This document shows, one piece after another, positions 1 to 64,000 of a stretch of DNA of 64,000 nucleotides. How positions within the stretch are numbered: the stretch's first letter is position 1; the number at the start of each line of letters is the position of its first letter. The notes beneath the pieces were generated by a model. It searched no databases. It saw only the letters and a program-made list of their open reading frames with translations, and had not been told where the DNA came from. The translations under genes and the position numbers were made by a program. The stretch lies in the NCBI RefSeq assembly GCF_963675165.1, contig NC_087386.1, positions 1,786,931-1,850,930 of the forward strand. Reading direction: 5' to 3'. The stretch is from Halichondria panicea (lineage: Eukaryota; Porifera; Demospongiae; Suberitida; Halichondriidae).

Positions 1-960
1 TAATGTGCACTATTTCCAGTGGAGGTTTGTACACATGGCAGTGGAAGAGCGATAAAAATACAATAGAAATAGAAAAGAAAGGCCACTACACAGTCACCAT
101 TGGAGACGGAAGTAGAACAACTAAGTTGAGGATAAACAAACTGGACTTCAGTAATGCTGCTAATTATGAATGTATAGCAACAACAACACACGATGTGGAT
201 TTAAAGAACTCAACAACGTATTTAGTGGAGTTTCCAGGTACGTAAGTATCATACTCACATACTCACCTATTACTGTCCATCCTTTCTAGAGCATGTCGTT
301 TCCACATCTGGTGTGTGTGGATATCGACACACAGAAGAGGTTACCTTGACCTGTGAACTCCATGGTTACCAGTCATCACTCTCTCCTCCTGTGTGGCTAA
401 ACACAAATGGCAGTGAAATAACCACCACTACAAAATCAAAATACACCATCACTTCTGGTGAAGGGTTGAACGTAATTGTCTCTGAGAATGGAATTACTAA
501 CCCGAGTGTGATTGTCATGCTTAGAATTCGAGATCTATCGTTAGCTGATGGAGGTACCTACACGTGTCGTGGTGTCAGAGGAGGGAAAGGTGTCACTCAC
601 CTTGCCATTTTAGAAGGAATAGCCCCTCCCAGTACACCACCTTTGACCTCGTTAGCACTCAGTAATGTTTTGCTACCTATAGTGTACGGATTAGTATCTA
701 TAGTAACTCTCCTAGTGATTGCATTACTTCTCCTCATTATCTTCATCGTTTACCTACTGAGGAAGATCAACAAAACAAAGAATTCCTTAATACGCTCGAC
801 TGAAGCTTTACAAGTACCTAATTCTCTCTCCATACAAGAAAGGGAAGACACCTCAATTTCTGTGCAGGATGTAATATATGAAGAGATTTCCGAAAGACGC
901 GTCGTGTCATTGACAAAGAATGAAGCCTACGTATGTGTGTCGACTCCTCTAGAAAAATAG
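1..960 (+). CDS. g1: type A two-Ig receptor, 5' end outside window
   Basis: Visible exons are 1-237 (end of exon 2, most of Ig1) and 290-960 (Ig2, stalk, helix, tail); the intron is 238-289, a GT-AG intron with donor GTACGTAAG. Ig1 shows the WQW core and the AANYEC ending. Ig2 shows TLTCELHG, VWLNTNG and DGGTYTC. A short Pro/Thr stalk leads to a helix of about 25 residues (LVSIVTLLVIALLLLIIFIV), then a basic stop-transfer YLLRK and a tail with YEEI and YVCV. The predicted product is a type I membrane receptor that binds an unknown ligand outside the cell and recruits SH2 proteins inside. All visible exons are open. Exon 3 and its 3' flank are nearly identical to those of g24, so the missing 5' part probably resembles g24. 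Confidence 0.82.
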
Positions 961-1602
961 ACAACCAAAAAGTAACTTTTTTTACTTCGTCAATGTGTCT
1001 GTGTTTACTATAGTTTGCATTTATGCAAATCCATTTACCCTTAGACTTTATAGCTGTAAACACCCTGTGTGTTACGTTGTGTGTGTGTATGCACGTACAA
1101 TTGTAGTTTCATTTGAGTTGCTTACAGAAATTCTAGAATGCTGTTAATAAACTACCTGTTCCTGGGAAACCCACAATAGCGACGAAGACGTCCAAATAGC
1201 CAGTTCTACCCCCTGTTAGGAAATCCCCTGTGCATGGAGATTAAGCCCAATGTCATCCCAAAGCCTTTCCTTGCCTCGAAATATATAAGTTGCTTGGTAT
1301 AGCAAACACTTGTTACTCCTTTGAGGTAATGTGATATGTATAGTAGCTAAAAGTTTCCATGCAGAAGAGATCTCATTCATGTACACTGATATTTGTTTTT
1401 AGTTGACGTTATTAGTTCAGTACACGTTGACATCCCATGTGCAGGTCATTCGATTGTCATTTGTCACTCCATTATCTGTCCCATATTTGCTTATCTAATG
1501 TTAGTTCCACCTCATTCTATATCCACCTCTTCTATGTACATGTAGGTCTACATAGCTAATTTGCAAAAGTTGGACTAACAAACTATTGTCTCTTGAACAA
1601 TC
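961..1602 (+). promoter_or_regulatory. Intergenic g1-g2: 3' block and g2 upstream region
   Basis: Holds AATAAA at 1146-1151, followed by the conserved block CTGTTCCTGGGAAACCC, a short GT run near 1075-1090, TGACGTT at 1404-1410, and the leader AGTTGGACTAACAAACTATT ending at the g2 ATG. No coding potential is seen. Functional roles are inferred from recurrence before and after other copies. Confidence 0.5.
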
Positions 1603-3496
1603 ATGATTCTATTTCTAACTGCTCTGCTCATCAGTGGCTATTGTGATGCTCTCACTTGTAATCAAACTGGTAAGCTTAAGCAGACATTTGAAGACTTATT
1701 TTCATGTTATATTTCAACCGATTAGCCCTTCCTACACTGTATCGAGGTCTGTGGTTAGATGGTGATCCAATTGCATACAACGATGTTCTGATCACCTATC
1801 CATCAAATTGTACACAGCCTAACATTCTTGCTAGATTCACTGTCTGTGATTACAGTGTTGTACTGGGTGATGGAGCAATCATTCCATCTCCTCCTGATCT
1901 CAATAGCTCGAGTTATTTCAGACACTTCATTACTTGGAACAGAGACTCATTGAATAGTTTTATTGACTTTGACCTCACTACAGCAACGGCTGGGATTACT
2001 GCTATAGAGCTCAGTTTCTTTAACAGTCCCGCCAACAGAATCAGTTTGCCTGATATTACAATATCAGTAGTTCATTTTGGAACTGTATCGCCCATTGCAA
2101 GCTGGATATTTGATAATGAACATCTTGATCAGACAGACAACCAAATCAGAACTATTAGCATTCGGCCATTCAGATCACTTAGTGCTGTGAACCTCAGAAT
2201 TAGGTTCCAATTTACAGTGTTTCATGATTTTGATTGGGTCTTTCTAAGTGAAGTACGCTTTTGTACAGACCTTCAACTAAACTTACAACCAGAAGTAATA
2301 TTTCAAATGCCACCATCAAACAATATCCAGCCAGATGCAGAGGACCTGAGAAGAGGATCAACAGAGTTAGTGTGCACTGTTTCTAGTGAAGGATCGTACA
2401 CATGGCAGTGGAAGAAAGATAATGTTATAATAGTGAATAAAGAGGACTACAGAATCACCATTGGAGATGGAAGTAGAACAACTAAGCTGACAATCAATAA
2501 TCTAGACTTTAGTGATGCTGCTAAATATGAATGTACGGGAATGACAAGACGAGATGCAAATGTCATGAACTCAGCAGTGTATGTACTGGAATTTCCAGGT
2601 ACCTAAACATCTTACCAGGAGTACATTAAGTACTCCTGCTCTTACTTATATACATACTGTTTGTTGCTGTCTTCCTTTTTTTAGAGCGTGTCATTACTAC
2701 ACCTGATGTCAGTGGATATCTACAGACTGGAGAGGTTACCCTGACCTGTGAGCTCCATGGTTACCAGTCATCACTCTCTCCTCCTGTGTGGATATAAACA
2801 CAAATGGCAGTGAAACAAATGACTCTGCCAAATACACTGTGTCCGTGTGTGAAGGAAACAACACCATGATTCTACAGAATGGCACTGTCGTCCCTAGTAT
2901 CATTTTCAACATCATAATTCACAACCTTTCATTAGCTGATGGAGGTACCTACACGTGTCGTGGTGTCAGAGGAGAGAGTGTCACTCAACTCACAATATTG
3001 GAAGGGACTGATCCAAACATGGTATCGCAAACATGCATTTCTACGTCTATAGAGGGTGAGTAAACTGTGACTGAGTTTACTTTCATTATACATTATATAT
3101 GCCTATTATCAGAAACAATTATAACTTGGTTTCGTATTTATTACTGCAGGTATCACTCCCACTCCATCTCCTGGCAACGAAACTACCACTCGTGTCCCTG
3201 TAATGGATGAAACCATTGTCATCATAGCAGCTGCAGTAGGGAGTGTTATTATAGTACTCACAATACTTATCCTCATAATCTTCATCGTTTACCTACTGAG
3301 GAAGATCAACAAGATGAAAATACGTTCGACTGAAGCTTTACAAGTACCTAATTCTCTCTCCATGCAAGAAAGGGAAGACACCTCAATTTCTGTGCAGGAT
3401 GTGACATATGAAGAGATTACCGAAAAAAATGACAAGTTATTGACAAAGAACGAAGCCTATGTGTGTGTATCGACTCCTCTAGAAAATATAAATTAA
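1603..3496 (+). pseudogene. g2: type B two-Ig receptor, frameshifted in Ig2
   Basis: Exons are 1603-1669 (signal peptide), 1726-2598 (N-terminal domain of the LPTLYRGLW class plus Ig1), 2685-3055 (Ig2) and 3150-3496 (type B stalk, helix, tail). Exons 1, 2 and 4 are open. In exon 3 the usual TGG-CTA-AAC reads TGG-ATA-TAA: two extra bases create an in-frame stop at 2795-2797, in the middle of Ig2. The rest of Ig2 continues in another frame. A protein made from this copy would end inside Ig2 and lack the membrane helix. Only this lesion is visible, so it could be recent, polymorphic or an assembly error. Intron 2 carries the hairpin AGGAGTAC-ATTAA-GTACTCCT, shared with g15 and g27. Confidence 0.75.
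3059..3081 (+). promoter_or_regulatory. Hairpin overlapping the type B exon 3 splice donor
   Basis: AGTAAACT (3059-3066) and AGTTTACT (3074-3081) are perfect reverse complements around a 7-base loop. The left arm covers bases 4-11 of the intron whose donor is GTGAGT at 3056. The same arms follow the donor in g5, g10, g11, g12, g15, g16, g21, g25 and g27; g8 has a mismatch. It could mask the donor in RNA. This is an inference from sequence. Confidence 0.45.
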
Positions 3497-4130
3497 AATT
3501 TCACTGAGCAGACCTTTAACACTATCCTGTGTTGTTTGAATACCATTTACCTGATACTTTAATTTTCTCTATCTGTAAAAACATTTTGTGTGTTACGTGT
3601 GTACAATAGTAATTCCATTTAAGAAGCAATCTGAGAATGCTGTTTTATAAAATAAACCACCTGTTCCTGGGAAACCCAATAGCGACAAAGACGTCCAAAC
3701 AGCGAGTTTAGACCCCCTGTGGAGATTAAGCCCAATGTCAAACGAAAGCCTATAAAGTCGAAATATCTGTAGTATAGAGCGGACATGCATGTTCCATTGA
3801 GATCATGTTAGTATGTCTAAGTATTTTGCGATATTAAATTGAGCAACTGAGAGTTGACTCATGAACACTGGTGTTTGTGATTGTTTGTCAAACAGTGACG
3901 TTATTTGATAAACTTGTCACTTTAGTATGGGAAGTTATATAAACCATATCATAATTACTCAGTATTACCTCAGTACATCAGTTGTTGACGTCCCTATGTG
4001 CAGATCATTCACTTTATCAATTCATGCGTATATAATTTGCTCCATTCTGCCCCCCCATATATATTCTATATATAATGAGTACTGCAACTCTTGTACACAT
4101 AATTATTCAGTTACTATAATCTGAGCAATC
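3497..4130 (+). promoter_or_regulatory. Intergenic g2-g3: 3' block and bZIP-like sites
   Basis: AATAAA lies at 3651-3656 with the conserved block after it. Upstream of g3 are a consensus AP-1 heptamer TGACTCA at 3855-3861 and TGACGTCC at 3986-3993, a near match to the CRE octamer. Nothing coding is seen. Confidence 0.5.
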
Positions 4131-5429
4131 ATGATTCTATTTCTAATTTCTAACGGCTCTGCTCATCAGTGGCTATTTGTGATGCTCTCACTTGTAATCA
4201 AACAGGTGAGCTTAGGCAGACATTAATTTTGAACATTTATTTTATGCCAATTAGCCCTTCCTACACTGTATCGAGGTATGTGGTTAGATGGTGATCCAAT
4301 TACATACAACGATGTTCTGATCACCTATCCATCAAATTGTACACGGAGGAGCATTCTTGCTAGATACATTGTCTGTGATTACAGTGTTGTACTGGGTGAC
4401 GGAGCAATCATTCCATCTCCTCCTGATCTCAATAGTTATTTCAGACATTTCATTGCTTGGAACAGAGACTCATTGAATAGTTTTATTGACTTTGACCTCA
4501 CTACAGCAACGGCTGGGATTACTGCTATAGAGCTCAGTTTCTTGAACAGTCCTGCCAGTCGAATCAGTTTGCCAGAACCTAGACTATCTGTAGTTGAATA
4601 TACCCGAAGCCTGAGAGATCGAACCGAAACAAGTATCACAACCTGTATAATTTGATAATCAAGATCTGACTCAGACAGACAACCAAATCAGAACTATTAT
4701 AGTATTCGGCTATTCACATCACTTAGTGCTGCGAACCTCACACAGCCTCTATCTCCTTTTCAACAACTTAAGGCTGTAATCCTTCAAACACCATCATCAA
4801 TTATTGTTCAGCCAAGTGCGGACGACCTGAGAAGAGGATCAACAGATATAGTGTGCACTGTTTCCAGTGAAGGATTGTACGTATGGCAGTGGAAGAGAAA
4901 CAATGCTATTATAGAAAATAGTAAGGACTACAGAATCACCATTGGAGATGGAAGCAGAACAACTAAGTTGACGATTAACAATCTGGACTTTAGTGATGCT
5001 GCTGATTATGAATGCATAGCAACAACAACACACGATGTGGATTTAATGAACTCAACAGTGTATTTAGTGGAGTTTCCAGGTACCTAAAATTAATTACTTA
5101 ATACATGACTAATTAACTTGCTGTTCCTTCCATTCCAGAGCATGTCATTACAACACCTGATGTCAGTGGGTATCTACAGACTGGAGAGGTTACCCTGACC
5201 TGTGAGCTCCATGGTTACCATGCAGTCAACACTCTCTCCTCCTGTGTGGCTAAACACAAATGGTAGTGAAACAAATGACTCTGCCAAATACACTGTGTCT
5301 GTGTGTGAAGGAAACAAAACAATAATTCTACAGAATGGCACTGTTGTCCCTAATATAATTTTGGACATCACAATTCACAACCTTTCATTAGCCGATGGAG
5401 GTACCTACACGTGTCGTGGTGTCAGAGGA
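4131..5429 (+). pseudogene. g3: heavily broken receptor copy, 3' end lost
   Basis: Exon 1 (4131-4205) is 75 bases instead of 67, so it no longer joins exon 2 in frame. Exon 2 (4255-5079) has a frameshift near 4646 (TGTATAATTT for TGGATATTT) ending at a stop at 4653-4655. It also has a deletion near 4740 that removes the end of the N-terminal domain, including the FHDFDW and RFC motifs. Ig1 (4851-5079) is open. Exon 3 starts at 5139 and has four extra bases near 5220. At 5429/5430 the Ig2 sequence stops abruptly and continues as the middle of an exon 2 belonging to g4. Stalk, helix and tail are missing. g18 carries the same lesions up to this point but not the fusion. Confidence 0.8.
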
Positions 5430-6657
5430 TTCGGCCACTCACACCACTTAGTGCTGCGAACCTCAGAATTAGGTTTCAATTCACAGCGTTTCATGATTTT
5501 GATTGGGTCTTTCTGAGTGAAATAAGATTTTGCACACAGTCTCAACCTCCTTTTCAACTTATTAACGCTGTCATACTTCGAACACCATCATCGATTATTG
5601 TTCAGCCAAATGCAGGCGACCTGAGAAGAGGATCAACAGAGTTAGTGTGTACTATTTCGGGTGAAGGATCGTACGTATGGCAGTGGAGGAGAGACAATGC
5701 TATCATAATGATGGAAAATGGTGAGTCCTACAGAATCACCATTGGAGACGGAAGCAGAACAACTAAACTGATGATTAACAATCTGGAATTTAGCGATGCT
5801 GCTAATTATGAATGCATAGCAAAAACAACACACGATGTGGATTTAATGAACTCAACAGTGTATTTAGTGGAATTTCCAGGTACCTAAATTACTTGATACA
5901 AATTGCCATTCTACACCCTGCATGTACTCGTGTACATATTCACCTATTAAATGTATATTGCTGTCCTTCCTTTCTAGAACATGTCGTTTCCACATCTGGT
6001 GTGTGTGGGTATCTACAGACTGGAGAGGTTACCCTGACCTGTGAGCTCCATGGTTACCAGTCATCACTCTCTCCTCCTGTGTGGCTGGACTTGGGTGGCA
6101 GTGAAATAACCGCATCTACAAAATACACCATCACTTCTGGTGAAGGAGGGAACACCATCGTTTTTGAGAATGGCACTGCTATCCCTAGTGTGATTGTCAG
6201 GCTTAGAATTCGAGATCTATCGTTAGCCGATGGAGGGAACTACACGTGTCGTGGTGTCGGAGGAGGAGAGAGTGTCACTCAACTTGTGATTACAGAAGGG
6301 ACAGCCCCTCCCACTACTGCACTACCTGTGACTACTCAAGGGACGTTAGCACCTAATAATGTTTTGCTACCAACAGTACATGGATTAGTGTCCATAGTAA
6401 CTATCCTAGTGATTGCATTACTTCTCCTCCTTGTCTTCATCGTTTACCTACTGAGGAAGAAGATCAACAAGATAATAAACTCCTTAATACGTTCGACTGA
6501 AGCTGTACAAGTACCTAATTCTCTCTCCATACAAGAAAGGGAAGACACCTCAATTTCTGTGCAAGACGCGACATATGAAGAGATTGCTGAAAGAAGCAAC
6601 ATGTTATTGACAAAGAACGAAGCCTACGTGTGTGTGTCGACTCCTTTAGAAAAATAG
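5430..6657 (+). pseudogene. g4: type A receptor lacking its 5' half, fused to g3
   Basis: The sequence begins inside exon 2 at the end of the N-terminal domain (LSAANLRIRFQF, FHDFDW, RFC), continues through an open Ig1 to 5879, and has exon 3 at 5978-6657 with Ig2, a Pro/Thr stalk (TTALPVTTQGT), a helix and an intact YEEI/YVCV tail. There is no signal exon, promoter or exon 2 start; these were lost at the 5429/5430 junction. Every base of the remaining coding part reads open. The segment from 5430 through the 3' flank closely matches g20, which supports a deletion between neighbouring copies rather than a separate short gene. Confidence 0.8.
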
Positions 6658-7351: not shown

Positions 7352-9234
7352 ATGATTCTATTTCTAACTGCTCTGCTCATCAGTGGCTATTGTGATACTC
7401 TCACTTGCACTCAAACAGGTATATAAGTTTAAGTAGCATCGAATTATTTTAATGTTGTATTCCAACCGATTAGTCCTTCCTACACTGTATCGAGGTCTGT
7501 GGTTAGATGGTGATCCAATTACATACAATGATGTTCTGATCACCTATCCATCAAATTGTACACAGTATTTTTTTGCTAGCTTCACTGCCTGTGATTATAA
7601 TGTGGTACTGGGTGACAGAGCAATCATTCCATCTCCTCCTGATCTCAATAGTGCAAGTTATGTCAGATATTTCATTGCTTGGAACAGAGACTCATTGAAC
7701 AGTTTTATTGACTTTGACCTCACTACAGCAACGACTGGGATTACTGCTATAGAGCTCAGTTTCTTGAACAGTCCTGCCAACAGAATCAGTTTGCCAGAAC
7801 CTAGACTATCTGTTATTGAATATACCCCAGGCCTTAGGGATCGAAACGAAACAAGTATTACAACCTGGATACTTAATAATCAAGATCTGGCTCAGACAGA
7901 CAACCAAATCAGAACTATTAGCATTCGGCCATTCCCACCACTTAGTGCTGCAAACCTCAGAATTAGGTTCCAATTCACAGTGCTTCATGATTTTGATTGG
8001 GTCTTTCTGAGTGAAATACGATTTTGCACAGACCTTCAACAACCAGAAGTAACATTTCAAACGCCATCATCAAACTATATACAGCCAAGTGCGGGTGATC
8101 TGAGAAGAAGATCAACAGAGTTAGTGTGCACTGTTTCCAGTGAAGGTTCATACACATGGCAGTGGGAGAGAGATAATGTTATGATAGTAAATAACGGCGA
8201 CTACACAATCACCATTGGAGACGGAAGTAGAACAACTAAGCTGACAATCAACAATCTAGACTTTATAAGTGATGCTGCTGAATATGAATGTACGGTAATG
8301 ACAAGACGAGATGCGAATGTCGTTAATTCAGCAGTGTATGTATTGGAGTTTCCAGGTACCTAAACCTCTTACTTATACATACTGTTTGTTACTGTCTTCC
8401 TTTTTTTGGAGCATGTCATTACTACACTTGATGTCAGGGGATATTTACAGACTGGAGAGGTTACTCTGCCCTGTGAGCTCCATGGTTACCAGTCATCACT
8501 CTCTCCTCCTGTGTGGCTAAACACAAATGGTAGTGAAACAAATGACTCTGCCAAATACACTGTGTCTGTGTGTGAAGGAAACAACACCATAATTCTACAG
8601 AATGGCACTGTCGTCCCTAGTATCATTTTCAACATCACAATTCACAACCTTTCGTCAGCCGATGGAGGCACCTACACGTGTCGTGGTGTCAGAGGAGAGT
8701 GTCACTCAACTCACAATATTAGAAGGGACTGATCCAAACATGTTATCACAAACATACATCTCTACGTTTATAGAGGGTGAGTAAACTGTGACTGAGTTTA
8801 CTTTCATTATACATTTTATATGCCTATTATCAGTAAAAAATTATGACTTGCTTTCTACTGGTTATTATTCTCTCATATTTACTGCAGGTATCACCCCCAC
8901 TCTACCCCCTAGCAACGAAACTACCACTCGTGTCCCTGTAATGGATGAAACCATTGTCACCATAGCAGCTGCAGTAGTGACTGTTATTATAGTACTCACA
9001 TTACTTCTCCTCATAATCTTCATCGTTTACCTACTGAGGAAGATCAACAAGATGAAAATACGTTTGACTGAAGTTTTACAAGTACCTAATTCTCTCTCCA
9101 TACAAGAAAGGGAAGACACCTCAATTTCTGTGCAGGATGTGACATATGAAGAGATTGCCGAAAGACACGACATTTTATTGACAAATAACGAAGCCTACGT
9201 GTGTGTATCGACTCCTCTAGAAAATAGAACTTAA
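7352..9234 (+). pseudogene. g5: type B receptor with lost splice acceptor
   Basis: Exon 1 is 7352-7418 and exon 2 is 7474-8355; both are open. Exon 2 has one extra residue in Ig1 (LDFISDAAEYEC). The acceptor of intron 2 is GG at 8408-8409 where other copies have AG after the same T tract. The next AG, two bases on, would shift the frame into an early TGA. Exon 3 (8410-8776) also lacks two bases near 8695 (GGAGAGTGTC for GGAGAGAGTGTC), which shifts the end of Ig2. Exon 4 (8888-9234) is open, with stalk TPTLPPSNETT, helix and full tail. Two independent lesions make loss of function likely, but retention of intron 2 would still give a short soluble N-domain plus Ig1 product. Confidence 0.75.
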
Positions 9235-10139
9235 AAATACATTTCACTGAGCAGACCTTTAACACTATCCTGTGTTTACTTTTGTTTGCATATACCATTT
9301 TACCTGACACTTTAATTTTTCTAGCTGTAAACATTTTGTGTGTTACTTGTGTACAGTAGTAACTCCATTTGAGAAGCAATCTGAGAATGCTGTTAAATAA
9401 ACCACCTGTTCCTGGGAAACCCACAATAGCGACGAAGACGTCCAAACAGCCACTTGACACCCTGAGGAGATTAAGCCCAATGTCAAACGAAAGCCTATAA
9501 AGTCGAAATATCTAATAGCGGACATGCATGTTCCATTGAGATCATATGATATGTATAGTATGTCTAAGTATTTTGCGATATTAAATTGATCAACTGAGAG
9601 TTGACTCATGAACACTGGTGTTTGTGATTGTTTGTCAAACAGTGACGTTGTTTGTATAAACTTGTCACTTTAGTGTGGGAAATTATTTAAACCATATCAT
9701 AATTACTCAGTAATATCTCAGTACATTAGTTGTTGACGTCCCTATTATGTGCAGATCATTCACTTTTTCAATTCATGCGTAATCCTTCCACTAATAATTT
9801 GTTCCATTCTGCATACCCCCATTCTGAGTACCGTATAGCGCGAAATTTTCGAGGGGCTTAATTTTCGTGGATTTCGTGGGTTAGCAATCCTACACGAAAA
9901 TTAAGTCCACGAAAATCGTTCTTTACCTGCTATAACGTGCAAGATCTAAAGGCGTGGCTTCCGGTAAGCAGTCATTCCGCGAACATTGTGCAACGAAATG
10001 GCTTTTAGAGGCCAATCCACGAAATATAAGTGCCTCGAAAATTTCGCGCTATACGGTATATACTGCAACTCTTGTACACATATTCATAGCTAAAGTTTTA
10101 TACTTACACAAACTAGCTCTTGCTCTAATCTGAGCAGTC
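9235..10139 (+). promoter_or_regulatory. Intergenic g5-g6, interrupted by a small transposon
   Basis: AATAAA at 9396-9401, TGACTCA at 9602-9608 and TGACGTCC at 9734-9741. The inserted element at 9831-10056 separates these sites from the leader and ATG of g6, adding about 230 bases to the usual spacing. Confidence 0.5.
9831..10056. mobile_element. MITE with 24-base terminal inverted repeats and TA duplication
   Basis: The left end CCGTATAGCGCGAAATTTTC (running on to 9854) is the exact reverse complement of the right end (10033-10056). TA flanks both sides (9829-9830 and 10057-10058). The matching region upstream of g17 (near 37950) reads GAGTATATACTG with a single TA, which gives the empty site. 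An inner, weaker inverted repeat (CACGAAAATTAAG and TTAATTTTCGTG) is present. No coding capacity. The TA target and short length fit a non-autonomous Tc1/mariner-type element; the class is an inference. Confidence 0.88.
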
Positions 10140-16946: not shown

Positions 16947-17599
16947 ACCAACCGAAAAGTTATTAACATTATCCTGGATAAATTTTTTAATGTTTGTGTT
17001 AACCATTGTTTGTATTAGTTTATTTGTGAATTAGTTTGTTCAAATCCATTTACCCTAACACTTTAATTTGTCTATAGCTGTAAACTAGCCTCCTTCTCAG
17101 GCGTCTTTTCGAGTATGGATGAAGTGGTGATGGGGACAAGGCTATAGCTGTATATATTATGTTGTGTGTTGCTTACAGAATATATATAGCTACCAATCTG
17201 AGAATACTGTTTAATAAACCTGTTCCTGGAAAACCCACTATAACAACGAAGCCGTCCAAACAGCCAATTTTACGAACTGTATGTAATTTTTGTGTAAGTA
17301 AGAAAATTGAGCAACAGAGTTGAAGTTCATGAGCACCGTATATCAAACATTGACATTTTATGTATAAAGTTGTCCTGCAGATTATGTAAACTAGCTTTAT
17401 ATCTCAGTAAACTGTTGACGATGTGCAAATTATTTCAACACATTCAATTTGTCAATTCAAGGTGTTTAATTGAACCCATTCTCATATGCATGCCGCATAT
17501 TGGTTTCTATATACCACTCTTAAAAACACCGCCTATAATTTTATACATGTACTCATAATTTAAAATCGGTTGGACTAACAGGCTCTTAACTGAACAATT
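16947..17599 (+). promoter_or_regulatory. Intergenic g8-g9
   Basis: Contains the 70-base direct-repeat insert at 17072-17152, AATAAA at 17213-17218 and a conserved block, then the g9 leader. No TGACTCA or TGACGTCC site is seen here; TTGACGATG near 17415 takes the place of the second. Confidence 0.45.
17072..17152. repeat. Short insert between direct repeats, recurring in type C flanks
   Basis: CTATAGCTGTA occurs at 17072-17082 and 17142-17152; between them lies a segment starting CTAGCCTCCTTCTCAGG. Similar inserts between copies of AGCTGTAAAC lie at 29780-29855, 39862-39937, 42106-42180, 44402-44472 and 51687-51762. Type A and B flanks have a single AGCTGTAAAC and no insert. The ends (CTAGCCT and AGGCCAG) are weakly inverted, so this may be an old insertion with a target duplication of about 10 bases, copied by gene duplication. 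Confidence 0.6.
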
Positions 17600-52073: not shown

Positions 52074-53913
52074 ATGATTCTATTTCTAACTGCTCTGCTC
52101 ATCAGTGGCTATTGTGATGCTCTCACTTGTAATCAAACAGGTGAGCTTAAGCAGACATCTGAAGACTTAATTCAATGTTGTATTATCCAACTGATTAGCC
52201 ATTCCTACACTGTATCACGGTCTGTGGTTAGATGGTGATCCAATTACATACAACGATGTTCTGATCACCTATCCATCAAATTGTACATGGAGGAGCATTC
52301 TTGAAAGATTCATTGTCTGTGATTACAGTGTTGTACTTGGTGACGGAGCAATCATTCCATCTCCTCCTGATCTCAATAGTGCAAGTTATTTCACACATTT
52401 CATTGCTTGGAACAGAGACTCATTGAATAGTTTTATTGATTTTGACCTCACTACAGCAACGGCTGGGATTACTGCTATAGAGCTCAGTTTGTTGAACAGT
52501 CCAGTCAACGGAATCAGTTTGCCAGAACCTAGACTATCTGTAGTTGAATATAACCCAAACCTTAGTGTTCGAAACGAAACAAATATTATAACCTGGATAT
52601 TTGATAATCAAGATCTGACTCGAATAGACAACCAAATCAGAACTATTAGCATTCAGCCACTCACACCACTTAGTGCTGCAAACCTCAGAATTAGGTTCCA
52701 ATTCACAGTGTTTCATGATTTTGATTGGGTCTTTCTGGGTGAAATAAGATTTTGCACACAGCCTCAACCTCCTTTTCAACTTATTAACGCTGTCATACTT
52801 TGAACACCATCATCAATTATTGTTCAACCAAATGCAGGCGACCTGAGAAGAGAATCAACAGAGTTAGTGTGTACTATTTTGGGTGAAGGATCGTACGTAT
52901 GGCAGTGGAGGAGAGACAATGCTATCATACTGATGGAAAATGGTGAGTACTACAGAATCACCATTGGAGACGGAAGCAGAACAACTAAGTTGACGATTAA
53001 CAATCTGGACTTTAGTGATGCTGCTAATTATGAATGCATAGCAACAATAACACAGGATGTGGATTTAATGAACTCAACAGTGTATTTAGTGGAATTTCCA
53101 GGTACCTAAATTACTTAATACAAATTGCCATTCTACACCCTGCATGTACTCGTGTACATATTCACCTATTAAATGTATATTGCTGTCCTTCCTTTCTAGA
53201 ACATGTCGTTTCCACATCTGGTGTGTGTGGGTATCTACAGACTGGAGAGGTTACCCTGACCTGTGAGCTCCATGGTTACCAGTCATCACTCTTTCCTCCT
53301 GTGTGGCTGGACTTGGGTGGCAGTGAAATAACCGCATGTACAAAATACACCATCACTTCTGGTGAAGGAGGGAACACCATCGTTTTTGAGAATGGCACTG
53401 CTATCCCTAGTGTGATTGTCAGGCTTAGAATTCGAGATCTATCGTTAGCCGATGGAGGGAACTACACGTGTCGTGGTGTCGGAGGAGGAGAGAGTGTCAC
53501 TCAACTTGTGATTACAGAAGGGACAGCCTCTCCCACTACACCAACCCCTCCCACTACTGCACTACCTGTGACTACTCAGCACACGTTAGCACCTAGTAAT
53601 GTTTTGCTACCAACAGTACATGGATTAGTATCCATAGTAACTCTCCTAGTGATTGCATTACTTCTCCTTATTGTATTCATCGTTTTACCTACTGAGGAAG
53701 AAGATCAACAAGATAATACATTCCTTAATACGCTCGACTGAAGCTGCACAAGTACCTAATTCTCTCTCCATACAAGAAAGGGAAGACACCTCAATTTCTG
53801 TGCAGGATGTGACATATGAAGAGATTGCCGAAAGAAGCAACATGTTATTGACAAAGAACGAAGCCTACGTGTGTGTGTCGACTCCTAGGAAAATAGACAA
53901 TCAAAAAAATTAA
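52074..53913 (+). pseudogene. g23: type A receptor with a stop and a tail frameshift
   Basis: Exons are 52074-52140, 52199-53101 and 53200-53913. TGA at 52801-52803 replaces CGA in the linker between the N-domain and Ig1 (NAVIL then stop); Ig1 and Ig2 are open after it. One extra T near 53684 (CGTTTTACC for CGTTTACC) shifts the frame at the inner end of the membrane helix, so the tail would read LPTEEEDQQDNTFLNTLD and stop at 53741, without YEEI or YVCV. In the original frame the tail is still recognisable to about 53890, and its end is altered by a two-base loss (TCCTAGGAAAATAG). Upstream it resembles g20; downstream it resembles g4. Confidence 0.8.
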
Positions 53914-54607: not shown

Positions 54608-56350
54608 ATGATTCTATTTCTAACTGCTCTGCTCATCAGTGACTATTGTGATGCTCTCACTTGTACTCAAACAGGTATATAAGTTTAAGTAGCATCGAAT
54701 TATTTTAATGTTGTATTCCAACCGATTAGTCCTTCCTACACTGTATCGCGGTCTGTGGTTAGATGGTGATCCAATTACATACAACGATATTCTGATCACC
54801 TATCCATCAAATTGTACACGGCCAAATGTTCTTGTTAGATTCAGTGTTTGTGAATACAGTGTCGCACTGGGTGACGGAGCAATCATTCCATCTCCTCCTG
54901 ATCTCAATAGTTTAGGTTATGTCAGACATTTCATTGCTTGGAACAGAGACTCATTGAATAGTTTTATTGATTTTGACCTCACTAAAGCAACGGCTGGAAT
55001 TACTGCTATAGAGCTGAGTTTCTTGAACAGTCCTGCCAACAGAATCAGTTTGCCAGAACCTAGACTATTTGTTATTGAATATGCCCCAGGCTATAAAGAT
55101 CGAAACGAAAAAAGTATCACAACCAGGATATTTGATAATCAAGATCTGACTCAGACAGACAACCAAATCAGAACTATTAGCATTCGGCCATTCACACCAC
55201 TTAGTGCTGCGAACCTCAGAATTAGGTTTCCAATTCACAGTGCTTCATGATTTTGATTGGGTCTTTCTGAGTGAAATACGGTTTTGCACACAGCCTCAAC
55301 CTCCTTTTCAACTTATTAAGGCTGTCATCCTTCAAACACCATCATCTATTATTGTTCAGCCAAGCGCAGACGATTTGAGAAGAGGATCAACAGAGTTAGT
55401 GTGCACTATTTCCAGTGAAGGATCGTACGTATGGCAGTGGAAGAGCGATAAAAATACAATAGAAATAGAAAAGAAAGGCCACTACACAGTCACCATTGGA
55501 GACGGAAGTAGAACTACTAAGTTGAGGATAAACAAACTGGACTTCAGTAATGCTGCTAATTATGAATGCATAGCAACAACAACACAGGATGTGGGTTTAA
55601 AGAACTCAACAACGTATTTAGTGGAGTTTCCAGGTACGTAAGTATCATACTCACATACTCACCTATTACTGTCCATCCTTTCTAGAGCATGTCGTTTCCA
55701 CATCTGGTGTGTGTGGATATCGACACACAGAAGAGGTTACCTTGACCTGTGAGCTCCATGGTTACCAGTCATCACTCTCTCTTCCTGTGTGGCTAAACAC
55801 AAATGGCAGTGAAATAACCACCACTACAAAATACACTATCACTTCTGGTGAAGGGTTGAACGTAATTGTCTCTGAGAATGGAATTACTAACCCGAGTGTG
55901 ATTGTCATGCTTAGAATTCGAGATCTATCGTTAGCTGATGGAGGTACCTACACGTGTCGTGGTGTCAGAGGAGGGAAGGGTGTCACTCACCTTGCCATTT
56001 TAGAAGGAATAGCCCCTCCCAGTACACCACCTTTGACCTCGTTAGCACCCAGTAATGTTTTGCTACCAACAGTGCATGGATTAGTATCCATAGTAACTCT
56101 CCTAGTGATTGCATTACTTCTCCTCATTATCTTCATCGTTTACCTACTGAGGAAGATCAACAAAACAAAGAATTCCTTAATACGCTCGACTGAAGCTTTA
56201 CAAGTACCTAATTCTCTCTCCATACAAGAAAGGGAAGACACCTCAATTTCTGTGCAGGATGTACTATATGAAGAGATTTCCGAAAGACGCGTCGTGTCAT
56301 TGACAAAGAATGAAGCCTATGTGTGTGTGTCGACTCCTCTAGAAAAATAG
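54608..56350 (+). pseudogene. g24: type A receptor with one N-domain frameshift
   Basis: Exons are 54608-54674 (signal peptide with ISDYC for ISGYC), 54730-55633 and 55686-56350. One extra T near 55228 (AGGTTTCCAATTC for AGGTTCCAATTC) shifts the frame within the last strand of the N-domain, ending at a TGA near 55250. From there the correct frame continues open through the FHDFDW-type motif (LHDFDW), RFC, Ig1 (WKSDKNTIEIEKKGHYTVT), Ig2, stalk (PPSTPPLTSLAPS), helix and tail. Exon 3 and the 3' flank are nearly identical to g1. A single one-base change in a T run could also be a sequencing error, in which case the gene is intact. Confidence 0.72.
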
Positions 56351-57016: not shown

Positions 57017-59158
57017 ATGATTCTATTTCTAACTGTTCTGCTCATCAGTGACTATTGTGATGCTCTCACTTGTAATCAAACAGGTAAGGCTTAAGCAGAC
57101 ATTTGAAGACTTATTTTCATATTGTATTCCAACCAATTAGCCCTTCCTACACTGTATCGAGGTCTGTGGTTAGATGGTAGTCCAATTACATACAACGATG
57201 TTCTGATCACCTACAGTGCCTTTAGTCTATAGAGTAAATAAACGCAATTTGGTACGTGTTAGTACATAAATGTCAATATTTTGAGATTGGAACATTTCTA
57301 AGAAAATATGATGATACCATTGTGTTGGTGAACAAATTATCTAAAACATATCCAAAAATATTTCCATGGCAACCAAAGGTGGTGGGTATGTGGTGGTTTA
57401 TAAAACACCAACATTTTTCTATAGTGGACAATCACTTAGCGACGGAAAAGACCAATTATTTTCGGCTAATGTATGGAACTTTGGCACAACATTCCTGAAT
57501 AGTTTAGCTAACATATGCATGGTTACGTATAGCTTACATAAGTATACGTACTGATTAATACTCAATTATAGGATATTTTAGGTGCCTTTTCGCTTAGCGA
57601 TGGAACTCAAGCAAATTTGTCGGCTAAGGTCTAATTGTTTTTGCACATTAATTGTTAATAAATTTTCTATCTTTTGATACAAAAAAGTTGTCCAGAAATA
57701 CTTTAGTTCCGGAGATATTTCATGTTACACATATATTTTACGATCACCCCCATTTTTACCTAAAATAATTTCCCACTACAACAAATTTTGGGGAAATATT
57801 TTCAAATAAGGTTGTAGCTTATTTATTCACCTACTACACAATGGTATCAGCACAATTTCTTAGAAATGTTCCAATCTTGAGATACATTTAAGTACAACTA
57901 CTCACTCTGTGATTAAATTTACTCTCAAAGCTGAAGGCACTGTATCCATCAAATTGTACACAGAGAAACATTCTTGCTAGATTCACTTGTGATTACGGTG
58001 TTGTACTGGGTGACGGAACAATCATTCCATCTCCTCCTGATCTCAATAGTTCAAGTTATTTCAGACATTTCATTATTCCACTATTCCAGGTGAAGGATCA
58101 TATGTATGGCAGTGGAAGAGAGACAATAGTATCATGATTCTAGAAAATAATGGGGATTATAGAATCACCATTGAAGACGGAAGCAGAATAACTAAGTTGA
58201 TTATTAACAATCTGGACTTTAGTGATGCTGCTATTATGAATGCATAGCAACAACACACGATGTGGATTTAATGAACTCAACAGTGTATTTAGTGGAGTTT
58301 CCAGGTACCTGGTATATATATTTATGATTAAAAAATTAAATCGCTGTTCCTTAATTCCAGAGCATGTCATTACTACACCTGATGTCAGTGGATATCTACA
58401 GACTGGAGAGGTTACCCTGACCTGTGAGCTCCATGGTTACCAGTCATCACTCTCTCCTCCTGTGTGGCTAAACACAAATGGCAGTGAAACAAATGACTCT
58501 GCCAAATACACTGTGTCCGTGTGTGAAGGAAACAACACCATAATTCTACAGAATGGCACTGTCGTCCCTAGTATCATTTTCAACATCACAATTCACAACC
58601 TTTCATTAGCTGATGGAGGTACCTACACATGTCGTGGTGTCAGAGGAGAGAGTGTCACTCAACTCACAATATTAGAAGGGACTGATCCAAATATGTTATC
58701 ACAAACATGCATTTCCTCGTCTATAGAGGGTGAGTAAACTGTGATTGAGTTTACTTTCATTATATGCTTATTATCAGAAACAATTATAACTTAGTTTCGT
58801 ATTTACTGCAGGTATCACTCCCACTCCATCCCCTGGCAACGAAACTACCACTCGTGTCCCTATAATGAACGAAGCCATTGTCACCATAGCAGCTGCAGTA
58901 GTGACTGTTATTATAGTACTTACAATACTTATCGTCATAATCTTCATCGTTTATCTACTGAGGAAGATCAACAAGATGAAAATACGCTCAACTGAATCTG
59001 TACAAGTACTTAATTCTCTCTCCATACAAGAAAGGGAGGACACCTCAATTTCTGTGCAGGATGTGACATATGAAGAGATTGCCGAAAGAAATGACATGTT
59101 ATTGACAAAGAACGAAGCCTACGTGTGTGTGTCGACTCCTCTAGAAAATAGAAATTAA
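57017..59158 (+). pseudogene. g25: type B receptor interrupted by a transposon
   Basis: Exon 1 is 57017-57083 (ISDYC variant). Exon 2 (57141-58304) is split by the 729-base element at 57214-57942, inserted in the codons for ITYPSNC. After the element the N-domain resumes but is cut near 58080, where HFI is joined directly to the start of Ig1 (GEGSYVWQWKRDN). A two-base loss near 58232 then breaks the end of Ig1. The donor of intron 2 reads GTACCTGG, the only copy without the usual TAA. Exon 3 (58361-58729) and exon 4 (58812-59158) are fully open, with Ig2, TPTPSPGNETTTRVP, helix and tail (SVQDVTYEEIAERND). Non-functional as a full receptor. Confidence 0.85.
57214..57942. mobile_element. 729-base non-autonomous inverted-repeat element, TA target
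   Basis: The ends are CAGTGCCTTTAGTCTATAGA on the left and, reversed, CAGTGCCTTCAGCTTTGAGA on the right; the inverted similarity continues inward (GATTGGAACATTTCTAAGAA on both arms, then GATACCATTGTGT) for well over 100 bases. TA is duplicated at 57212-57213 and 57943-57944; uninterrupted copies read ATCACCTATCCATC with one TA. The small open frames inside do not resemble a transposase to me. Best fit is a long-TIR MITE of a TA-targeting family. Confidence 0.87.
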
Positions 59159-59768
59159 AAATTAACATTTCACTGAGCAGACCTTTAACACTATCCTGTG
59201 TTTGCATACCATTTACCTGATACTTTAATTTTCTCTATCTGTAAAAACATTTTGTGTGTTACGTGTGTACAATAGTAATTCCATTTGAGAAGCAATCTGA
59301 GAATGCTGTTTTATAATAAACCACCTGTTCCTGGGAAACTCACAATAGCGACAAAGACGTCCAAACAGCGAGTTAGACCCCCTGTGGAGATTAAGCCCAA
59401 TGTCATTAGTATGTTAAGTATTTTTGCAAGTTGCAATATTAAATCTATCAACAGATAGTTGACTCATGAACACTGGTGTTTGTGATTGTTTGTCAAACAT
59501 TGACGTTGTTTGTATAAACTTGTCACTGTAGTGTGGGAAATTATTTAAACCATATCATAATTCTCAGTAATACCTCGGTACATTAGTTGTTGACGTCCCT
59601 ATTATGTGCAGATCATTCACTATTCATGCGTAATCCTTCCACTATATAATTTGTTCAATTCTGCATGCCCCCATTCTATATAATGAGTAGATACTGCAAC
59701 TCTTGTACACATATTCATAGCTAAAGTTGTACTAACACAAACTAGCTCTTGCTCTAATCTGAGCAGTC
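59159..59768 (+). promoter_or_regulatory. Intergenic g25-g26
   Basis: AATAAA at 59315-59320, TGACTCA at 59460-59466, TGACGTCC at 59591-59598, then the leader GTACTAACACAAACTAGCTC. A clean example of the full set of shared upstream sites ahead of an intact gene. Confidence 0.55.
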
Positions 59769-61577
59769 ATGATTCTATTTCTAGCTGCTCTGCTCATCAG
59801 TGGCTATTGTGATGCTCTCACTTGTAATCAAACAGGTAAGTTTAGGCAGACATTAGAAAATTTATTTCATGTTGTAATCCAACTGTTTAGTTAACCCTAA
59901 AACGTATCGAGGTCTGTGGTTAGATCGTGATCCTATTACATACAACGATGTTCGGATCACCTATCCATCAAATTGTACACAGAGAAACTTTCTTGCTAGA
60001 TACATCTGTGATTACAGTGTGGTACTGGGTGACGGAGCAATCATTCCATCTCCTCCTGATCTCAATAGTGCAAGTTATTTCAGACATTTCATTGCTTGGA
60101 ACAGAGACTCATTGAATAGTTTTATGGACTTTAACCTCACTACAGCAACGGCTGGGATTACTGCTATAGAACTCAGTTTCTTGAATAGTCCTGCCAATGG
60201 AATCAGTTTGCCAGAATCGAGACTATCTGTTATTGAATATGCCCAAGGCCTTAGTGTTCGAAACGAAACAAGTATTACAACCTGGATATTTGATAATCAA
60301 GATCTGGCTCAGACAGACAACCAAATCAGAACTATTAGCATTCGGCTATTCCCACCACTTAGTGCTGCGAACCTCAGAATTAGGTTCCGATTCACAGTGT
60401 TTTATGATTTTGATTGGTTTTTTCTAAGTGAAGTACGCTTTTGCACAGACCTTCAATCTCCTTTTCAACTTAGGGCTGTAATCCTTCAAACACCATCATC
60501 TATTATTGTTCAGCCAAGTGCAGACGATCTGAAAAGAGGATCAACAGAGTTAATGTGCACTATTTTGGGTGAAGGATTGTACGTATGGCAGTGGAAGAGA
60601 GACAAATCTATAATCATAATAACAGACAACTACACGATCACCATTGGAGACGGAAGCAGAACAACTAAGTTGACGATTAACAATCTGGACTTTAGCGATG
60701 CTTTTAATTATGAATGCATAGCAACAACAACACAGGATGTGGATTTAATGAACTCAACAGTGTATTTAGTGGAGTTTCCAGGTACTTAAATTACTTGATT
60801 GCTTTTCCATTTTGGTATACTCATGCACATACTCACCTATTAAATATATGTCCTTCCTATTTAGAGCATGTCGTTTCCACATCTGGTGTGTGTGGATATC
60901 AGACTGGAGAGGTTACCTTGACCTGTGAGCTCCATGGTTACCAGTCATCACTCTCTCCTCCTGTGTGGCTGGACTTGAATGGCAGTGAAATAACCACCAC
61001 TACAAAATACACTATAACTTTTGGCTCAGGAGGAAACACCATTGTTTTTGAGAATGGCACTGCTATCCCTAGTGTGATTGCCAGTCTTACAATTCGAAAT
61101 CTATCATCAGCCGATGGAGGGAACTACACGTGTCGTGGTGTCAGAGGAGGAGAAAGTGTCACTCAACTTGTGATTGCAGAAGGGACAGTCCCTCCCACTA
61201 CACCACCCCCTCTCACTACACCACCCCCTCCCACTACTGCACTACCTGTGACTACTCAGGGCACGTTAGCATCTAATAATGTTTTGCTACCAACAGTGCA
61301 TGGATTAGTGTCCATAGTAACTATTCTAGTGATTGTATTACTTCTCCTCATTGTATTCATCGTTTACCTACTGAGGAAGAAGATCAACAAGATAATACAT
61401 TCCTTAATACACTCGACTGAAGCTGTACAAGTACCTAATTCTCTCTCCATACAAGAAAGGGAAGACACCTCAATTTCTGTGCAGGATGTGACGTATGAAG
61501 AGATTGCCGAAAGAAGCGTCATATCATTGACAAAGAACGAAGCCTACGTGTGTGTGTCGACTCCTTTAGAAAAATAG
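59769..61577 (+). CDS. g26: intact type A two-Ig membrane receptor
   Basis: Exons 59769-59835, 59891-60781 and 60865-61577 join to 556 residues. The signal peptide has LAALL for LTALL. The N-domain starts VNPKTYRGLWLDRDP, mixing the two class signatures, and lacks one residue near the second cysteine (RYICDYS). Ig1 has a unique C'-D region (KSIIIITDNYTITIGDGS) and ends FNYEC. Ig2 carries LNGSEITTTTKYTITFGSGG. The stalk has two TTPPP-LTTPPPPTT units like g7 and unlike g20, so stalk length varies between copies. Helix, KKINK and tail (DVTYEEIAERSV, EAYVCVSTPLEK) are complete. No lesion seen. The 3' half is close to g7. Confidence 0.88.
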
Positions 61578-62350
61578 ACAGCTAAACTTTTACTGAGCAG
61601 TCCTTTAACTTAATCCTGACTAATTTGTCAATGTCTGTATTTACTATTGTTATGTGCACTTGCATAATTATCCATTTACTGTATACCCTTTACCCTGATA
61701 CGTATAATAATTATGTTGTTCCATTTGAAATGTCTATATATAGCAATCTGAGAATGCTGTTTAATAAATCACCTGTTCCTGGGAAACCCAGAATAGCGAC
61801 GAAGACGTCAAAACAGCTAGTTCTACCCCCCCGTTAGGAGACCCCCTGTGGAGATTAAGCCCAATGTCAAACCAAAGCCTAAAGCCTTGCCTCGAAATAT
61901 TTAAACTTGGATAGCAAACACGTTATTTTAACATTATGTTGAACATTATGTTGAAATCATGATATGTATATAGCTACGTTTAGATGTGTTTTGTTAAGTT
62001 ACGAGAATTGAGCATGCAACAGAGAGATCAGATCATTCATGTACACTAATACTTGTAATTATTTGTCAACATTGAAGTTGTCTGCCGGTGTAAAGTTGCA
62101 TGCCTATTTAGTGTGGCAGATTATGTAAACCATAAAATATTGCGATGTACTTCAGTGCACTGTTGACATAACTATGTCCCGATCACTTCATGTGTGTATG
62201 TTTCCATTCTGCATGCCCCATATTTGTTTATCTATACATGATAAAAAATACTTCCACCCCCTAAACTATATCCGCCTCTCATACCAGTAACCTACATCAC
62301 TATAATTCATAATTATACTGAAGAAGTTGGACCAACAAACTATTACAGTC
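61578..62350 (+). promoter_or_regulatory. Intergenic g26-g27
   Basis: AATAAA at 61763-61768 and the conserved block. From about 61900 it resembles g15-g16, with the leader variant AGAAGTTGGACCAACAAACT. TTGACATAACTATG near 62163 stands where TGACGTCC is found elsewhere. Confidence 0.45.
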
Positions 62351-64000
62351 ATGATTCTATTTCTAACTGCTCTGCTCATCAGTGGCTATTGTGATGCTCT
62401 TACTTGTAATCAAACAGGTGAGCTTAAGCAGACATTTGAAGATTAATGTCATAGTTACCTAATGTTGTAGTGAACCCTCCGACATATCGACGTTTGTGGT
62501 CAGATATTGGGAATGATTACAATGGTGTTCCCATCACCTATCCACCAAATTGTATGCGGCAAAATCTCCATGAAATCTGTGACTACGATGTGGTACTGGG
62601 TGACGGAGCAATCATTCAATTTCCTCCTGATCTCAATAGTTCAAGTTATTTTGAGCATTTCATTGGGATGAGCAACTCAATGAATTTGTATATTGACTTT
62701 GACCTCACTACAGTAATGGCTGGGATTACAGCTATAGAGCTCAGTTTCTTGAACAGTCCTGCCAACAGAATCAGCTTGCCTGATATTACAATATCAGTAG
62801 TTCATTTTGGAACTGTAGCACCTATTGCAAGCTTGATATTTGATAATGAAGATCTGGCTCAGACAGACAACCAAATCAGAACTATTAGTATTCAGCCATT
62901 CAGATCACTTAGTGCTGTGAACCTCAGAATTAGGTTTCAGTTTACAGAATTTCATGATTTTAATTGGGTCTTTCTAAGTGAAGTACGCTTTTGTACAGAC
63001 CTTCAACCAAACTAACAACCAGAAGTAATATTTCAAATGCCACCATCAAACAATATCCAGCCAGATGCAGAGGACCTGAGAAGAGGATCAACAGAGTTAG
63101 TGTGCACTGTTTCCAGTGAAGGTTCGTACACATGGCAGTGGGAGAGAGACAATGCTATAATAGTGAATAAAGGGGACTACAGAATCACCATTGGAGATGG
63201 AAGTAGAACAACTAAGCTGACAATCAATAGTCTAGATTTTATGATGCTGCTGAATATGATGAATGTATGGGAATGACAAGACGATATGCAAATGTCATGA
63301 ACTCAGCAGTGTATGTACTGGAATTTCCAGGTACCTAAACATCTTACCAGGAGTACATTAAGTACTCCTGCTCTTACTTATATACATACTGTTTGTTGCT
63401 GTCTTCCTTTTTTTAGAGCGTGTCATTACTACACCTGACGTCAGTGGATATCTACAGACTGGAGAGGTTACCCTGACCTGTGAGCTCCATGGTTACCAGT
63501 CATCACTCTCTCCTCCTGTGTGGCTAAACACAAATGGCAGTGAAACAAATGACTCTGCCAAATACACTGTGTCCGTGTGTGAAGGAAACAACACCATGAT
63601 TCTACAGAATGGCACTGTCGTCCCTAGTATCATTTTCAACATCACAATTCACAACCTTTCATTAGCTGATGGAGGTACACTGTAAAAACAAATGGGTTGA
63701 AATAACCCATTTTTGGTTGCCTGAATTGCAATTTTGCAATTCAGGCAACCAAAAATGGGTTATTTCAACCAATTTGTTTTTACAGTGTACCTACGCGTGT
63801 CGTGGTGTCAGAGGAGAGAGTGTCACTCAACTCACAATATCAGAAGGGACTGATCCAAACATGTTATCACAAACATGCATTTCCTCGTCTATAGAGGGTG
63901 AGTAAACTGTGATTGAGTTTACTTTCATTATATGCTTATTATCAGAAACAATTATAACTTAGTTTTGTATTTATTACTGCAGGTATCACTCCCACTCCAC
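62351..64000 (+). pseudogene. g27: type B receptor, broken, 3' end outside window
   Basis: Exons are 62351-62417, 62471-63330, 63417-63897 and 63983 to beyond the window. The N-domain is of the VNPPTYRRLWSD class and open. TAA at 63013-63015 replaces TTA in the linker before Ig1 (TDLQPN then stop). A one-base loss near 63240 and three extra bases near 63258 break the end of Ig1. Exon 3 is interrupted at 63678 by a 110-base palindromic element, which adds an in-frame TAA four codons after DGG. The end of Ig2 and the type B linker follow the element. Only the first bases of exon 4 are visible. Confidence 0.83.
63678..63787. mobile_element. 110-base near-perfect palindromic MITE in the Ig2 exon
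   Basis: Left arm CACTGTAAAAACAAATGGGT and right arm ACCAATTTGTTTTTACAGTG are inverted copies; the two halves match over about 54 bases with one difference. TA is duplicated at 63676-63677 and 63788-63789; uninterrupted copies read GGAGGTACCTACACG. The near-perfect symmetry suggests a recent insertion. The CACTGTAAAAA ends and TA target suggest a Tc1/mariner-type origin; the class is an inference. Confidence 0.92.

Follow-up and report, generated by a model that had tools for sequence, protein, structure and literature searches.

What kind of receptor system requires many copies of one gene plan in tandem, most of them broken? This question is raised by a 64 000-nt stretch of the genome of the sponge Halichondria panicea (hereafter the window), located at positions 1786931-1850930 of contig NC_087386.1 (C10). 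The genes in question encode predicted surface receptors with two immunoglobulin (Ig) domains and a short tyrosine-containing tail. We argue that the window probably belongs to a paired-receptor locus, where the same kinds of ectodomains are carried either by a receptor tyrosine kinase (RTK) or by a kinase-less chain with a phosphotyrosine-docking tail. The evidence that carries this reading comes from comparisons of exons, in which kinase-bearing and kinase-less genes draw on a single ectodomain pool.

Receptor array and adjacent kinase units

Iterated profile scans of the window with four exons (E1, E2, E3 and transmembrane (TM)/tail) detected 25 copies of the signal-peptide exon E1, hence 25 complete gene starts; 27 copies of the Ig2 exon E3, of which an insertion splits the last; and 26 TM/tail stretches that are complete, together with a single small stray fragment. 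E2, which encodes an N-terminal domain (N-domain) together with Ig1, was found as 33 pieces because lesions interrupt many of these exons. The 27 Ig2 exons are accounted for by 25 complete units, the 3′ end of a unit cut by the left border (U0) and a partial second copy inside unit U2 (5426-6657); the original prediction had given the same number, 27 copies of one receptor plan. Direct-repeat analysis of the window revealed 300-nt blocks repeated ~20-23 times at a spacing of 2.1-5.2 kb. The expectation that all copies point in a single direction holds inside the window, where every listed exon match is on the plus strand, and fails outside it, where the minus strand carries one unit (~C10:1864.1-1865.9 kb) and a fragment of E1.

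A unit starts with E1 (67 nt), continues with the N-domain (~190 residues) and Ig1 encoded in one exon, then Ig2, and ends with a stalk, a single TM helix and a 60-69-residue tail. In type A units an intron interrupts the stalk and a fourth exon (E4) follows; in type B units the Ig2 exon reads straight into stalk, TM helix and tail. All introns of intact units are in phase 1. Both Ig domains are supported by Pfam, and the plan that had been proposed (signal peptide, N-domain, two Ig domains, Thr/Pro stalk, TM helix and YEEI tail) was thus confirmed.

A large tandem receptor locus extends past both borders of the window, which covers its middle part. Searches of the genome (131.46 Mb, 39 contigs) with the N-domain and with the Ig2-to-tail stretch placed the main array at C10:1785158 to 1872543. 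They also identified a second group of ectodomain matches at C10:1911833-1938314, ~39 kb past the array end and ~61 kb to the right of the window. By exon profiles applied to the fetched loci, the main array including the window has 36 Ig2 exons and the second group eight. Divergent members are situated upstream, at C10:1666-1712 kb, and two outliers were found on C6 and at C10:196 kb.

In all eight units of the second group (C10:1911.7-1940.2 kb) the ectodomain is followed by a tyrosine-kinase match. Five of them have open kinase frames (C10:1914147, 1918287, 1921938, 1929022 and 1939391); the other three are damaged. Catalytic motifs are present in the five open kinases; their ratio of non-synonymous to synonymous substitution rates (dN/dS) is 0.16 over the kinase, and the juxtamembrane part, with three to four NPxY motifs in each of them, gives 0.53. 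More RTKs, some without Ig domains, are located at C10:1701-1734 kb.

Exchange of ectodomain exons

We compared distance matrices of gene segments in 19 of the 25 window units (U2, U4, U7, U16, U23 and U25, too damaged or cut, were left out) and in seven of the eight RTK units (R4 was left out). For these 26 units, segment distances were correlated within an exon (N1-N2, 0.44; N2-Ig1, 0.58; Ig2a-Ig2b, 0.74), while across intron 2 the values were 0.09 for Ig1-Ig2a (p 0.17) and 0.03 for N1-Ig2a. The eight intact window units gave 0.70, 0.79 and 0.77 within exons; between exons the figures were −0.08 (Ig1-Ig2a), 0.01 (Ig2b-tail) and 0.11 and 0.16 (N-tail). When five RTKs were added to the eight intact units, the within-exon values became 0.72, 0.76 and 0.78, and the Ig1-Ig2a value 0.00. 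In the set of 19 window units, Ig2b-tail stood at 0.14 (p 0.11) and N-tail at about zero; trees of N, Ig2 and tail made for the same units were mutually rejected in the approximately unbiased test (p-AU at most 3.1e-4).

The RTK genes take part in the same pattern. The closest N1 relative is a kinase-less unit for six of the seven RTKs, and for five of seven in each of the other four segments; judged by these segments, RTK ectodomains form no clade. At the membrane end, the stalk and first TM half of type A units match (88-90%, 112 nt) an exon found in four RTKs, and within the TM helix the similarity breaks off: one and the same exon start is followed by a kinase or by a YEEI tail. At the level of sequence, these comparisons show exons exchanged among units at phase-1 introns, including exchange between kinase-bearing and kinase-less genes, and a single ectodomain pool on which both kinds of genes draw.

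Relation to Geodia receptors

The spliced protein of the reference unit U19 was compared with all PDB sequences. The best match was 8ovq, ‘Cell recognition molecule, long form’ (E 1.7e-15), followed by 8qpx, ‘Receptor tyrosine kinase (Fragment)’ (E 2.2e-15), both over both Ig domains; NCAM was third (E 5.5e-6). In the reverse search, the 8qpx stretch produced 55 genome matches at E<=1e-3; the best of these (6.7e-14) was U19, and 51 of the 55 were inside units of the U19-type receptor family. The genome has a background of 149 PF00047 matches (150 candidates scored), and none of these other Ig genes was among the 8qpx matches. By this two-way search the two-Ig module is assigned to the Geodia RTK/cell-recognition-molecule family, in indirect agreement with a sponge origin. 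A silicatein motif pattern had no match in the genome, though an intron may interrupt that motif.

The 8ovq and 8qpx chains, which we take to be Geodia cydonium proteins, are 95.0% identical over 202 residues. One of the two Geodia forms is presumably without a kinase; the kinase form and the other form would therefore have nearly the same Ig pair, as do the kinase-bearing and kinase-less forms in Halichondria. The likeness thus extends from a tandem two-Ig module, with mutual matches in both search directions, to the existence of two forms. Differences are that 36 kinase-less Ig2 exons and eight kinase units are present here in one locus, and that the Halichondria units have, beyond the Ig pair over which Geodia was compared, an extra N-terminal domain and the YEEI tail. 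The locus places the Geodia RTK and cell recognition molecule of the 1990s in a genomic setting, where 95% identical Ig pairs in two forms are the expected product of exchange between kinase and kinase-less genes. Published work describes an Ig-like ectodomain in a Geodia RTK (PMC12018476) and presents Geodia GSAM as an adhesion molecule with Ig domains (PMC7916673). The Geodia family is also described as polymorphic between individuals and as induced by grafting.

The remaining four 8qpx matches, all weak, are upstream of the array (C10:1642323, 1646882, 1657556 and 1661295). Further clusters of PF00047 matches occur on contigs C4, C6, C9 and C1 (e.g. C4:5.66-5.72 Mb, C6:2.57-2.62 Mb and C9:6.69-6.70 Mb).

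Tail motifs and proposed mechanism

Two tyrosine motifs, YEEI and NEAY[VM]C, are kept in all 26 complete tails of the window, broken units included. A member whose N-domain is 49% identical still has YEEIAER and NESYV; the outlier at C10:196 kb has a different tyrosine-rich tail. The YEEI sequence is the preferred site of Src-type SH2 domains. It also fits the consensus of the immunoreceptor tyrosine-based inhibitory motif (ITIM), [SILV]xYxx[ILV], in 24 of the 26 window tails; the other two have A at position −2.

We propose that the kinase-bearing and kinase-less kinds, both displayed at the cell surface, would form a paired-receptor system that recognises a single class of variable surface ligands, be it on conspecific cells, symbionts or microbes. 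The RTK forms would signal through their own kinase. The YEEI site of the kinase-less forms would be phosphorylated either by an RTK of the cluster or by a kinase of Src type; thus modified, it would recruit SH2 proteins such as Src-type kinases, adaptors or SHP-type phosphatases; the phosphatases are included among the candidates because of the fit to the ITIM consensus. The kinase-less forms may in this way tune or oppose the RTK signal, and exon exchange would renew the ectodomains without loss of the match in specificity between the two outputs. The N-domain may, on weak evidence, be a discoidin-like beta sandwich.

Several results weigh against such a role. Reassortment is not complete in the window: in the 19 window units, broken ones included, Ig1-Ig2a distances do correlate (r 0.32, p 0.007), a link that could be explained by duplication of neighbouring blocks. 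Mean ectodomain distances are 0.143 within kinase-less genes, 0.113 within RTKs and 0.135 between the two; thus RTKs are somewhat closer mutually, yet not apart. As to signalling, the NEAY motif does not fit the ITIM consensus in the 26 window tails, and the canonical immunoreceptor tyrosine-based activation motif (ITAM), two YxxL/I motifs spaced by 6-12 residues, is absent from them, with 13 residues separating YEEI from YVCV. Two divergent members at C10:1676-1681 kb have tails that are damaged or different, with no in-frame YEEI.

The ectodomains, moreover, vary little more than the tail. Mean nucleotide identity in 25 units is 0.84 for N, Ig1 and Ig2; in the final 110 nt of the tail (23 tails compared) it is 0.89. 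Gene-wide diversifying selection was looked for in the eight intact window paralogs and was not found: dN/dS (with bootstrap ranges) was 0.67 (0.53-0.87) for N, 0.62 (0.43-0.90) for Ig1, 0.53 (0.43-0.73) for Ig2 and 0.51 (0.29-0.71) for the tail. Values of 0.5-0.7 mean moderate constraint; some stretches nominally exceed a ratio of 1, and comparison of paralogs is a poor test for allelic diversity. The predicted contrast of variable ectodomains with conserved tails is therefore weak: it is small in nucleotide identity, and in dN/dS the bootstrap ranges of all four domains overlap.

The N-domain, finally, gives little guidance. Pfam searches with nine N-domain proteins gave no convincing match (only DUF2417, at E 0.05-0.11, in three of them), and a PDB search with an 11-sequence N-domain profile returned no match at E<=10; a discoidin/F5-8C sequence profile was matched in neither search. 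AlphaFold2 models of two window paralogs were poor, with predicted local distance difference test (pLDDT) scores of 44 and 46 and, for the second model, a predicted template modelling (pTM) score of 0.49.

Alternative explanations

An explanation that overlaps ours and differs in the ligand keeps the paired design and assumes microbes or symbionts as the partner, with the N-domain binding glycans. We regard it as a possibility to be taken seriously, though not a likely one. The fold matches of the second N-domain model are mostly beta sandwiches of discoidin-like or galactose-binding-like type (CBM32, F5/8 type C, DOC, CBM6 and DDR1), and discoidin/CBM32-like domains often bind glycans. However, the scores are at chance level, usual for unrelated models (best Foldseek E 0.05, highest VIA Z 7.9), so the discoidin-like fold stays a lead. 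With DDR1/2 the receptors would have in common an RTK with a possible discoidin-like N-domain, given the weak fold match; they differ in having two Ig domains and no discoidin sequence match in Pfam. A profile comparison also aligned the N-domain with the ectodomain of an RTK nearby that has no Ig domains. It gave E 1.5e-4 at a probability of 52%, as against E 0.26 for a control Ig stretch, a resemblance in sequence that is suggestive only. In favour of a microbial ligand, one study groups putative Halichondria cytokine receptors with kinase and Ig domains among immune receptors (PMC8242945).

A more specific proposal is that this is a sponge allorecognition locus, with exon-shuffled ectodomains placed on kinases and on SH2-docking, possibly inhibitory, tails. 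By analogy with known systems the locus is a good candidate for recognising self or microbes; as an allorecognition locus in particular it is a tentative and rather doubtful one. Hydractinia Alr and Botryllus fuhc/fester are likewise clustered variable receptors of sessile animals, a similarity by analogy only. At such allorecognition loci extreme allelic polymorphism controls fusion or rejection; the Halichondria genes, which the kinase paralogs and the N-domain set apart, are known from one haplotype. The original prediction had likened the window to birth-and-death clusters of immune or allorecognition receptors. As an analogy this stands, but it is incomplete, for the RTK paralogs, exon reassortment and the Geodia family have to be added to it. 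If allorecognition were the function, one animal would have activating receptors for the surfaces of conspecific cells together with restraining receptors matched to them. Sponges reject foreign grafts; to our knowledge, the genes that decide this rejection are not known, and a kinase/kinase-less locus with one exchanged ectodomain pool would offer a concrete, typable candidate.

Could the kinase-less proteins be ordinary homophilic adhesion molecules, as the Geodia protein's name would suggest, with copy number reflecting dosage or turnover instead of recognition of variable partners? The nearest relative that has a name is a cell recognition molecule, no domain has a dN/dS as high as 1, and Geodia GSAM is described in a review as an adhesion molecule (PMC7916673). 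Still, exon reassortment, the many broken copies and ectodomains in common with kinases exceed the needs of plain adhesion, and we consider this explanation unlikely.

Decay is a further explanation: a burst of duplicates of one receptor, by now mostly pseudogenes with no special function. An automatic frame and splice check of the 25 complete units classified eight as intact (U5, U8, U11, U13, U15, U19, U20 and U24; U15 with a GC donor after E1) and 17 (68%) as broken, in line with the two thirds estimated before. Some lesions could be assembly errors; for the in-frame stops (U12, U17, U18 and U21) and the large deletions or insertion (U2, U4, U7, U16 and U23) this is unlikely. The same E2 lesions are present in U2 (4257-5077) and U16 (40562-41382), and the same stop pattern was seen at C10:1856964, to the right of the window; broken copies have therefore themselves been duplicated, which, along with the number of broken units and dN/dS values of 0.5-0.7, is what decay would produce. 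Set against this are the exons, which, broken units included, are 0.84-0.97 identical, while introns and flanks are 0.60-0.74 identical, so that either most damage is recent or the exons have been homogenised. Both tyrosine motifs persist in all 26 tails, and eight intact genes exceed the 5.2 expected under independent lesions (P 0.041; 20 000 shuffles). In view of these figures, decay without function seems improbable.

Combinatorial splicing across units is very improbable: phase-1 introns and a single strand in the window mean that exons of broken units could serve read-through transcripts, and intact exons (21, 12 and 13 of 25 for E1, E2 and E3 with tail, respectively) outnumber the eight intact genes, but 25 units each have their own start exon, and lesions are somewhat clustered in the same genes, as selection acting gene by gene would predict, which adds mild weight against it.

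Comparison with known paired receptors

The paired-receptor reading finds parallels in design among KIR, LILR, SIRP and CEACAM. These paired immune receptors, whose two forms act in opposite senses, have in common with the Halichondria locus a tandem array, exon exchange and many pseudogenes, as well as a common ectodomain on different signalling parts in one locus; an ITIM-type motif is found here at YEEI in 24 of 26 tails. The likeness is of design only, as the second output in Halichondria is a tyrosine kinase on the same chain and not an ITAM adaptor. Clusters of plant receptor-like kinases and receptor-like proteins also combine kinase and kinase-less receptors with common ectodomains; the proteins are unrelated, and it is here that a tyrosine docking tail is kept. 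If the paired-receptor reading is true, the design would be present in one of the earliest branches of the animals, built on receptor tyrosine kinases rather than on ITAM adaptors.

Neither the receptor family nor the paired-receptor idea is new. In the open-access literature we found no paper on a tandem array of RTK and kinase-less Ig genes in a sponge, nor on the plan with the N-domain; what the literature did not yield is the array and the exon-shuffled pool common to kinases and docking-tail receptors.

Individual units of the window

All units are on the plus strand; they were called by the frame and splice check together with exon profiles, and end coordinates of broken units are approximate. 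The intact type A units, whose stalk contains an intron, are U8 (19976-21823, 547 aa), U13 (32821-34779, 544 aa) and U19 (47297-49176, 558 aa; E2 at 47421-48312, E3 from 48367, E4 from 48831). Those of type B, with no intron in the stalk, are U5 (12441-14279, 560 aa), U11 (27944-29709, 551 aa), U15 (38043-39795, 550 aa, frame intact), U20 (49802-51549, 545 aa) and U24 (59769-61577, 556 aa).

Among broken units of type A, the lesion is in the Ig2 exon in U1 (1603-3500) and U3 (7352-9240) and in E4 in U14 (35500-37390). U9 (22485-24385) is broken at the end of the Ig2 exon, and U6 (15111-16960) and U10 (25481-27385) in all three segments. Lesions of E2 are found in U12 (30180-32131), with in-frame stops; in U17 (42520-44266) and U18 (44788-46609), with one in-frame stop each; in U22 (54608-56350); and, together with a lesion of the tail, in U21 (52074-53900). 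U16 (40436-42035) has the E2 lesions in common with U2; U2 itself (4131-6657) is broken and is followed by its partial second copy (E2 part at 5426-5877, Ig2 to tail at 5977-6657). U4 (10140-11779) is broken, and U7 (17600-19300) has lost a part of its N-domain. In U23 (57017-59160) E2 is shortened and interrupted by a ~730-nt insertion (57212-57944) with terminal inverted repeats, whose 28-nt arms are 82% complementary, and with TA at its bounds; these features suggest a small DNA transposon that targets TA sites.

At the borders, U0 (1-960) is represented by its 3′ part (end of E2, Ig2, stalk, TM helix and tail), its own E1 being left of the window at C10:1786144, and the broken U25 (62351-64000) runs past the window end. 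The stray TM/tail copy detected by the profile scan is situated between U15 and U16 (40145-40397).

The window has no known RNA genes at Rfam gathering scores. E1 (e.g. 47297-47363) is nearly invariant, with mean identity 0.967 in 25 units and a proportion of synonymous differences (pS) of 0.034 among intact ones; beside it, intron 1 has identity 0.739 and the upstream 200 nt 0.654. Either selection at the nucleotide level or local homogenisation might account for this invariance. In intron 2 of U13 (33800-33977), a stretch of 88 nt that includes the splice acceptor end is perfectly duplicated in tandem.

Outside the window, the neighbouring RTKs without Ig domains (L020 5059-8331, L020 1744-3648 and L014 2845-4572) have tyrosine-rich juxtamembrane parts. 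A RING/B-box gene is present at L019, and a fibrinogen-related gene (Fibrinogen_C, E 1.3e-30; L017 2632-3534, C10 ~1887.5 kb) is located between the kinase-less array and the kinase group.

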